From NCBI GenBank assembly GCA_026388545.1, contig JAPLJS010000043.1, forward strand, positions 1 to 45,438: a stretch of DNA of 45,438 nt, written 5' to 3'. Positions 6,597 to 13,755 of the stretch are shown piece by piece. How positions within the stretch are numbered: the first letter of the stretch is position 1; each line of letters starts with the position of its first letter. Made by a program: the position numbers and the translations under genes. The notes beneath the pieces are model-generated. The model ran no database searches. It was not told where the DNA came from and worked only from the letters and a program-made list of their open reading frames with translations. Origin of the DNA: Deltaproteobacteria bacterium (GTDB taxonomy: Bacteria; Desulfobacterota; Syntrophia; Syntrophales; UBA2185).

Positions 6597-6624
6597 TTGA
6601 CAAAACGGTTTAAGTGTATAGGTT
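6597..6624 (+). promoter_or_regulatory. Putative promoter of the HesB-like selenoprotein gene
   Basis: A perfect TTGACA (6597-6602), followed after 16 bases by TAGGTT (6619-6624). The -10 match is weak. The region downstream carries the 18-bp palindrome at 6643-6660. Confidence 0.45.
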
Positions 6625-6642: not shown

Positions 6643-6660
6643 GACTGACACAAGTCAGTC
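6643..6660 (+). promoter_or_regulatory. Operator-like palindrome upstream of the selenoprotein
   Basis: GACTGAC-ACAA-GTCAGTC, a perfect 7-bp inverted repeat, lies between the putative -10 and the ribosome site (GAAAGGAG, 6666-6673). Its position near the transcription start fits a repressor operator, for example of an Rrf2/IscR-type regulator; it could also be a leader stem. No T-run follows. Confidence 0.5.
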
Positions 6661-6679
6661 AATCTGAAAGGAGTTAACC

Positions 6680-6997
6680 ATGTTACAAGTAACCGAAAAA
6701 GCAGTAGAAATGATAAAAGACTTTCTCAAGGACAGGGGTGAGGAGCATATCATCAGGTTCATGATGAATGAGGGCGGGTGATCCGGTCCCTCCTTGGGCA
6801 TGGCTCTGGACGAGCCAAGAGATGGTGATGAGATATTTAAAGAAAACGGGATTACCTTCCTGATCAACAAAGAAATATTTGAACTGGTGAAACCAATTAC
6901 AGTAGATTTTATCAGTACACCGCGGGGAAGCGGATTCAAGGTGTCATCCAGTCTGGAAACCGGCAGTTCATGTGGAAAATCGTGCAGCAGTTGTTAG
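6680..6997 (+). CDS. HesB/IscA-like selenoprotein (UGA at codon 34)
   Basis: Read through the in-frame TGA at 6779-6781, this is a 105-residue HesB/IscA-type protein: MLQVTEKAVEMIKDFL, then NEGG-U-SGPSLGMALDEP, then a C-terminal domain ending SSCGKSCSSC. In IscA-family proteins the residue after GG in the GG(C)SG motif is a metal- or cluster-binding Cys; here it is replaced by Sec34. The C-terminal Cys cluster (98, 102, 105) replaces the usual CGCG motif. HesB-like selenoproteins are a known family in anaerobic bacteria. The ATG at 6680 has GAAAGGAG about 7 bases upstream, while the part after the UGA has no ribosome site of its own. A conserved hairpin follows the UGA. It probably has a redox or Fe-S role. 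Confidence 0.92.
6779..6822 (+). promoter_or_regulatory. UGA Sec codon and bacterial SECIS hairpin
   Basis: UGA at 6779-6781. Downstream, GGCTC (6802-6806) pairs perfectly with GAGCC (6812-6816) around the loop TGGAC. The stem extends with CTCCTT against AAGAG across a 6-base internal bulge. The apical loop begins 25 bases after the UGA and has G at positions 2 and 3. This fits the bSECIS pattern, with a short stem-loop roughly 16-37 nt after the UGA. Confidence 0.75.
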
Positions 6998-7048: not shown

Positions 7049-7162
7049 CGGCTTCCTAAAAAGCTCCGAAGCAAGGCGTGCGAGTCGCAAGGAATGAGGC
7101 GTGCTGAGACGTACGCCGTATAGCCTGCCCCGGCGCAGGCAGGGGGACTTTTTAGGAAGCCG
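7049..7162. repeat. Dispersed inverted-repeat element, 114 bp
   Basis: Two perfect 15-base inverted arms (7049-7063, CGGCTTCCTAAAAAG; 7148-7162, its exact complement) enclose about 84 bp with internal palindromic character. This arrangement matches a class of intergenic repeats in Deltaproteobacteria that end in GGAAGCCG(TC). Possibly a MITE-like non-autonomous element. It ends 13 bp before the TPR gene start, so it forms part of that gene's leader. Confidence 0.75.
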
Positions 7163-7175
7163 TCACAGAAGGCTT

Positions 7176-8123
7176 ATGAGTGAAGAAAGGAAAATAGATT
7201 ATTTTCTCCACCTTGCCGATGATTTAATGAAAGCAAAGCGGTATGATGCTGCTGTCATTCTTTATCGGAAGTTAGTTGATATGCATCCAGGTGAGGATTC
7301 CTTTCTTCTTTCATTGGCGTGGGCCTATCATGACAGCGGTAGGCTGGATGAGGCTGTCGATTGTTTTGAGCGCCTTCTCAACCGTGAACTGCAGCGGGAA
7401 GTCTTTACCGGGTTTGCCTTTGATGAGCTTGTCCGGATTTTTAAGGAAAAGGGAGAATACGAACGCCTCGTTGGTGTTTGTGAAAGAGTGGTTGCCATGC
7501 AGCCGGATGATATCGCACTCCTTAGTGATCTCGGCGACGCCTATCTCAAGGCGGGCAGGCCAAGTGATGCTGTTAAAGTGTTTGAAAAAATGATAGAGAT
7601 GGAACCGGATGCATCAGTAACGTATTGCAGTCTTGGGAATGCACTCATTGCGACAGGGGCCTTTGATGGCGCCGAAGAGGCGTACAGGAAAGCGGTTGAG
7701 ATTGATCCTTCAGAGGCTGGTTCCTTTTATAACAGGCTGGCTAGTGCTTATTTCAATGCGGGACATGCTGAAATGGCAGAAAGGACTTTCAGAAAATGTC
7801 TCGAATTCCGATTTGATGAACCCATGTACCACTGCGGCCTTGGGGATGTCTTGGTGAAACAGGGAAAGATTGACGATGCCGAGGGTGCATACGAAAAAGC
7901 CGCTCAGCTTGATCACGCTTCTTCAAGTGCTTACTACAACAGATTTGGAAACACCCTCGCCCGGGGAAATTTCTACCTTCAGGCGATAGAGGTTTTCAAA
8001 AAAGCCATTGCTGCAGATCCCGAAAACCCCTTCTATTATATCCACCTTGCAGAATCGTATACCGCAATCGGCCTTCCCGATATGGCGGAAAAAACGTATC
8101 GTAAGGCTGAGTCTCTCAGGTGA
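7176..8123 (+). CDS. TPR-repeat protein
   Basis: A 315-residue soluble protein built from about eight tetratricopeptide repeats; units such as LLSDLGDAYLKAGRPSDAVK and YYIHLAESYTAIGLPDMAEK show the typical A/G/Y/A/P spacing. No signal peptide or other domain is visible. The ATG at 7176 is chosen because AGAAGG lies just upstream and any earlier in-frame start would read through the inverted-repeat element. It is convergent with the receiver gene (4 bases between the stops). Its proximity to the PilT cluster might mean a scaffold role in motility, but that is inference. Confidence 0.9.
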   Translation: MSEERKIDYFLHLADDLMKAKRYDAAVILYRKLVDMHPGEDSFLLSLAWAYHDSGRLDEAVDCFERLLNRELQREVFTGFAFDELVRIFKEKGEYERLVGVCERVVAMQPDDIALLSDLGDAYLKAGRPSDAVKVFEKMIEMEPDASVTYCSLGNALIATGAFDGAEEAYRKAVEIDPSEAGSFYNRLASAYFNAGHAEMAERTFRKCLEFRFDEPMYHCGLGDVLVKQGKIDDAEGAYEKAAQLDHASSSAYYNRFGNTLARGNFYLQAIEVFKKAIAADPENPFYYIHLAESYTAIGLPDMAEKTYRKAESLR

Positions 8124-12586: not shown

Positions 12587-13600
12587 TTAGAATATCTTTG
12601 CGAACTGCCGCTTCGGTCTCGTTTTCCAGTTTCGCTTGTGATAGGCGTAGCTTGCGAGCAACGGCAATACGGAAGTTGCCTCGGCATAGACCATCTGCTC
12701 GCAGGCCATGTCCACTTTTCCCCATGACGTCGCTTCCTTCAGCGTGGAGCTGGAACAGGCCCCATCCCTCACATCAGCCACGGTGATCTGCACGGCATAT
12801 TTGTGCATGGGAGCATCAAATCCCAGGATTTCGGCACAGATTACCGTATCCTGGGCAAAGTTTTTTGGTACCCCTCCGCCGATAATAAGAAGTCCCGTCG
12901 TCTCCGCTTTTATCTTAATCATGGTCAATTCGCGAAAATCTTTTACCGCATCGATGGAAACGTGCTTTTCAGGACGCAGGTACTGGTGGAGGACAAGGCC
13001 GAACCCGGCGCTGCTGTCGGAAAAAGCGGGGCAGAAGATCGGGACGTCATGTTCATAAGCGACCTGTACAAGTGAATCCTTCTTTACGGCGTGCGTTGTC
13101 AGATATCTTCCCATCTCATGGATAAATTCCCGGGAGGAATAGGGAACCGGCGGCAGGGAATCTGCTATCTCTTTGATCGTTTTGTCACAGGTCTGGAGCT
13201 CTTCCTCATCGATAAAGGTATCGTATATCCGATCAATATATAAATTTCTCAGCGCCCGGTCATCACCATGCGGCGTACCCTGGTAGTGCCTGAACCCCAG
13301 AGCCTCAAAAAAATCCATGTCGACGATCGTTGCACCTGTGGCGACAATTACGTCCACCATGTTGTGTTTCACGAGGTCCGCATAGATCTGCATGCAACCC
13401 GCGGCGCTCGTGCTGCCTGCTATGGTGAGAATGACGGTGCAATTGTTGTCGGTGAGCATCCTGTCATAGATATCGGCGGCCTGGGCTAAGTCTCTTGCCG
13501 AAAAAGACATGCCCCGCATGGCATCAATGATATCCACGGCATTAAATGATTTAATATCAATGTGTTCAATCGGCGTCTTCAGATAGTCTTTCTTTTCCAT
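12587..13600 (-). CDS. Deoxyhypusine synthase-like protein
   Basis: A 337-residue protein with the full deoxyhypusine synthase (DHS) fold. Visible are GSTSAAGCMQIYADLVKHN (NAD-binding), GGGVPKNF, and a C-terminal LKEATSWGKVD carrying the position of the catalytic Lys (Lys329 in human DHS). Bacteria do not have the eIF5A substrate; bacterial family members have been reported to act as homospermidine synthase-like polyamine enzymes. Thus a polyamine role (putrescine/spermidine NAD-dependent transfer) is most likely. The start at 13600 has GAGGAG just upstream; a start at 13627 is also possible. No partner gene is adjacent. Confidence 0.85.
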   Translation of the reverse strand: MEKKDYLKTPIEHIDIKSFNAVDIIDAMRGMSFSARDLAQAADIYDRMLTDNNCTVILTIAGSTSAAGCMQIYADLVKHNMVDVIVATGATIVDMDFFEALGFRHYQGTPHGDDRALRNLYIDRIYDTFIDEEELQTCDKTIKEIADSLPPVPYSSREFIHEMGRYLTTHAVKKDSLVQVAYEHDVPIFCPAFSDSSAGFGLVLHQYLRPEKHVSIDAVKDFRELTMIKIKAETTGLLIIGGGVPKNFAQDTVICAEILGFDAPMHKYAVQITVADVRDGACSSSTLKEATSWGKVDMACEQMVYAEATSVLPLLASYAYHKRNWKTRPKRQFAKIF

Positions 13601-13755
13601 ACTCTCCTCGGTAAACTTACTGATCATTTTTATCCCCGGATTATTAAACCATGGTCATAGAAATGTCAATTAAGACTTTGAAGTCGACCAGTTCAACCGT
13701 GGTTCAATCAAAATCCATCTTGTCATTGGGTTGAATATCTGGTAGTTGCACATCA

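Follow-up and report, generated by a model that had tools for sequence, protein, structure and literature searches.

A short gene in the stretch of 45,438 nt analysed here (the window) is interrupted by an in-frame TGA, which raises the question of whether this codon is read as selenocysteine (Sec) and, if so, what the resulting protein might do. The original prediction, made from the DNA letters and their open reading frames, described a HesB/IscA-like selenoprotein whose frame is broken by UGA alone, and direct reading agrees with the second part of this statement, as codon 34 is the single in-frame TGA and the frame ends at a TAG. The elements of the gene are, in positions of the window:

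6667–6673, plus strand: Shine-Dalgarno sequence AAAGGAG, from direct reading and comparison with homologues
6680–6997, plus strand: gene for a HesB/IscA-family selenoprotein of 105 amino acids with predicted Sec34 and stop codon TAG, from NF038090, PF01521 and the IscA fold
6779–6781, plus strand: UGA predicted to be read as Sec34, from its conservation across loci and its alignment with the first ligand Cys of IscA
6801–6817, plus strand: apical stem-loop of a bacterial SECIS element, UGGCUC-UGGAC-GAGCCA, from stem conservation and codon choice
6971–6994, plus strand: C-terminal Cys motif C98-G-K-S-C102-S-S-C105, aligned with the C-terminal Cys region of IscA

The AAAGGAG lies 6 nt 5′ of the ATG at 6680, and a GGAG-type site precedes the start in nearly all of the relatives' homologues. 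The sole in-frame start listed 3′ of the UGA is TTG 6794, and reading the sequence directly reveals no Shine-Dalgarno-like sequence preceding it. A ribosome-binding site is thus found for the full-length start only, as had been claimed.

With Cys in place of Sec, the protein matches the NCBIfam model NF038090 (IscA_HesB_Se) over its full length with 111.4 bits, above the curated cut-off of 85, and Pfam PF01521 with 33.6 bits (cut-off 26.3), which places it in the A-type carrier superfamily. The score for TIGR01911 (HesB_rel_seleno) is 46.3 bits, below the cut-off of 66.35, and those for the IscA, SufA and ErpA equivalog models also fall short of their cut-offs (44.1 against 150.6, 44.2 against 136.2 and 40.5 against 117, respectively). 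An AlphaFold model with a pLDDT of 82 has its best structural matches in IscA (PDB codes 1x0g and 1r94); its last 11 residues (95–105), which include the C-terminal cysteines, have a pLDDT under 50. When the sequence was aligned to the solved chains 1nwb, 1s98 and 1r94, Sec34 fell on the first ligand Cys, the residue that Sec had been predicted to replace, and the C-terminal Cys motifs matched. The Cys-rich C-terminus had been regarded as unusual for IscA; given this alignment it is not out of the ordinary among IscA-like proteins. All 18 sequences in an alignment of the family keep C98 and C102, and the UGA is followed by SGP, forming a UxGP motif at the position of the first ligand Cys.

A protein search of 149 relatives' genomes returned matches in 122, most of them with exactly one internal TGA. 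The Sec position could be read at 87 homologous loci, a few of which are duplicates between collections, and is UGA in 73, Cys (TGC/TGT) in 12 and Trp (TGG) in two. Compared with seven close relatives, nucleotide changes fall mostly at third codon positions, both 5′ and 3′ of the UGA, in agreement with the claim of coding similarity on either side. Because the UGA is kept across loci and third-position changes dominate beyond it, we conclude that the 3′ part is translated and selected for. A stop, or a loss of conserved residues, after the UGA of the homologues would have spoken against a selenoprotein; the homologues keep both the UGA and the residues that follow. The two Trp loci (L079 and L080) are paralogues from two genomes, each of which has seven HesB-like matches. 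Three genomes from the same family contain a second Sec paralogue (L084, L085 and L086), which has the shorter motif AGU-G-GP.

Bacterial SECIS elements have a small apical loop containing a guanosine (PMC1088965). The hairpin at 6801–6817 follows soon after the UGA and has such a loop, UGGAC, which starts 25 nt after the UGA, the distance originally given. Of 67 distinct UGA genes, 66 retain the complete 5-bp core of the hairpin stem, while 5 of the 12 Cys genes do so (Fisher p = 2e-6), although the UGA genes are kin and their counts are not independent. Synonymous shuffling, in which the protein is kept and the codons are redrawn, would be expected to leave the stem in only 2.7 of the 67; for the present gene, the chance of a 5-bp stem at this place given the protein is ~4.6%. 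The Ala at Sec+8 is encoded by GCU in 63 of 63 cases, while GCU makes up 11% of Ala codons in the remainder of these genes, and all 67 UGA genes have a G within the first two loop bases. The codon choice and the contrast with the Cys homologues are hard to explain other than by a SECIS stem. Single-sequence folding of the hairpin was no better than that of shuffles (z = −0.21), and an Rfam search returned no SECIS match at the gathering score. In a 24-row alignment, one compensatory (two-sided) change was seen, a value reached by 17 of 500 shuffles. The stem shows hardly any variation, which leaves little formal covariation; since covariation is weak when taken alone, the argument for the SECIS rests on codon choice.

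The machinery for decoding UGA as Sec is encoded in the genome. All four components that the original prediction had proposed to look for score over their cut-offs, namely selC (the tRNA-Sec, 74 bits), SelA (612 bits), SelB (347.5 bits) and SelD (392 bits), and selD itself has one in-frame TGA. A genome lacking selB or selC would have counted against a selenoprotein, and both genes are present. In the assembly, the selB reading frame is broken into one of 592 aa and a second, overlapping one of 118 aa in which the C-terminal end is encoded:

About 1015–1132 of locus L030 (G000:C15), minus strand: selB frameshift, with the C-terminal end in another frame

This frameshift may be an assembly error, which is the simplest explanation for a draft assembly.

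We are highly confident that the gene product is a HesB-like selenoprotein within the superfamily of IscA/A-type carriers, with a predicted Sec at residue 34. The NF038090 match, the UGA in the large majority of loci, the selected hairpin and the Sec genes of the genome all agree with the initial assignment. In the mechanism that we propose, SelB carrying Sec-tRNA(Sec) would recognize the apical hairpin, and selenocysteine would be inserted at UGA 34 to give the 105-residue protein, which would fold like IscA. Sec34, together with C98, C102 and possibly C105, would then bind iron or an Fe-S cluster in the manner of the three Cys residues of IscA, and Sec might make this ligand more reactive, which would suit an anaerobic life. 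By analogy with IscA, an iron or Fe-S binding role with Sec34 as a ligand is thus predicted as the probable function.

A selenoprotein that binds no cluster, and in which Sec34 and the C-terminal cysteines instead form a Sec-Cys redox protein, is the alternative that survives best, though we consider it rather unlikely. It would account for the invariance of C98 and C102 alongside Sec34, and many selenoproteins are homologues of thiol oxidoreductases or hold redox motifs (PMC13188914); however, the positions concerned are those of the IscA ligands, and the fold is that of an A-type carrier. Readthrough of the UGA by another route, with a near-cognate Trp or Cys tRNA, or a genome-wide reassignment of UGA, is very improbable. 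The TGG codons at the Sec position of two paralogues in other genomes could be taken to favour insertion of Trp, but Sec is replaced mainly by Cys, the codon is followed by a SECIS hairpin, selA, selC and selD are present, and TGA is the normal stop codon at the end of homologous genes in many relatives. Least probable of all is a decaying pseudogene, a Cys-type hesB that gained a nonsense TGA, a view to which the in-frame stop and the frameshifted selB might lend themselves but which is refuted by the conservation across genera of the UGA and the residues downstream, by purifying selection beyond the TGA and by the selected hairpin.

Two elements had been predicted upstream of the selenoprotein gene:

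6597–6624, plus strand: promoter consisting of TTGACA (6597–6602), a 16-nt spacer and TAGGTT (6619–6624), kept in relatives
6643–6660, no strand assigned: perfect 7-bp palindrome GACTGAC-ACAA-GTCAGTC, previously called an operator

The promoter is supported, because TTGACA-N16-TAGGTT is recognizable in the aligned relatives, whose upstream regions keep TTTGACA and a TAnnTT-like hexamer 16 nt further on. The weakness of the second hexamer explains why a generic promoter scan did not pick up this promoter. None of the upstream regions compared from 12 relatives contains the palindrome, and a genome search for further copies returned 6643–6660 as the only one. We therefore reject its interpretation as an operator, and no functional role is assigned to it.

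Downstream, the next gene of interest is linked to the selenoprotein gene in many relatives:

7176–8123, plus strand: gene for a TPR-repeat protein, from Pfam TPR families

Of 67 loci in genomes belonging to the same order, 41 have a TPR homologue 3′ of the hesB-like gene and in the same orientation; this is a raw count, and since TPR proteins are common, part of these could be unrelated TPR genes. In the nearest relatives, the gap between the hesB-like and TPR genes is within about 20 nt, and in Desulfobacterales-type loci the downstream TPR gene is absent. At three loci (L048, L049 and L059), hairpins followed by T runs were read by eye between the two genes, which therefore do not always form one simple transcript. 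In the window, the space between hesB and the TPR gene holds a repeat element (7049–7162), which folds very stably (−63 kcal/mol, z = −5) and ends on both sides in perfect inverted repeats of 15 nt (CGGCTTCCTAAAAAG); it is absent at the same place in the closest relatives and has six more partial matches elsewhere in the genome. Further along the window, at 12587–13627, lies a gene for a deoxyhypusine synthase family protein (PF01916), here in a bacterial context.

Searches with two models, PF01521 and TIGR00049, found no other A-type carrier in the genome, which encodes one SufB/D-type and four NifU/IscU-type proteins. In several relatives, the protein search detects Sec proteins that PF01521 misses, and we therefore hold only weakly to the claim of a sole A-type carrier. 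That the HesB-like selenoprotein is the lineage's only A-type carrier and has the TPR protein encoded immediately behind it as a dedicated partner is a speculative and on balance doubtful proposal. If true, it would describe a HesB-like/TPR gene pair that many genera of the order have retained and that is undescribed in the papers searched; no paper combining HesB, selenoprotein and tetratricopeptide was found in a literature search. This genome may then have a Sec-containing protein as its only A-type Fe-S carrier. The TPR neighbour and the apparent lack of another A-type carrier offer a concrete handle on the function of the family.

HesB-like selenoproteins were listed in 2006, with hosts that include Syntrophus aciditrophicus and Syntrophobacter fumaroxidans, and two Sec-to-Cys conversions were described in the family, one of them with a remnant SECIS-like structure (PMC1794560). 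A 2026 review tabulates the HesB-like selenoprotein with the motif UxGP and the model TIGR01911 (PMC13188914). In the archaeon Methanococcus maripaludis, a HesB-like selenoprotein was found by mutagenesis and 75Se labelling, its function not being clear (PMC11097638). Because the family has been catalogued for two decades, the present gene adds a well-supported member to a known group of selenoproteins.

Compared with NF038090, the protein differs by ordinary sequence divergence alone, the match being full-length and over the cut-off, whereas it stays below the cut-off of the HesB-like family model TIGR01911. With the HesB-like selenoproteins listed earlier (PMC1794560) it shares the Sec in UxGP, the bacterial SECIS and deltaproteobacterial relatives. 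IscA, SufA and ErpA have in common with it the fold, the position of the first ligand Cys and a C-terminal Cys motif, but here Sec takes the place of the first Cys and is followed by GP rather than GM, and the C-terminal cysteines are spaced as CGxxC(S)xC instead of CxC.
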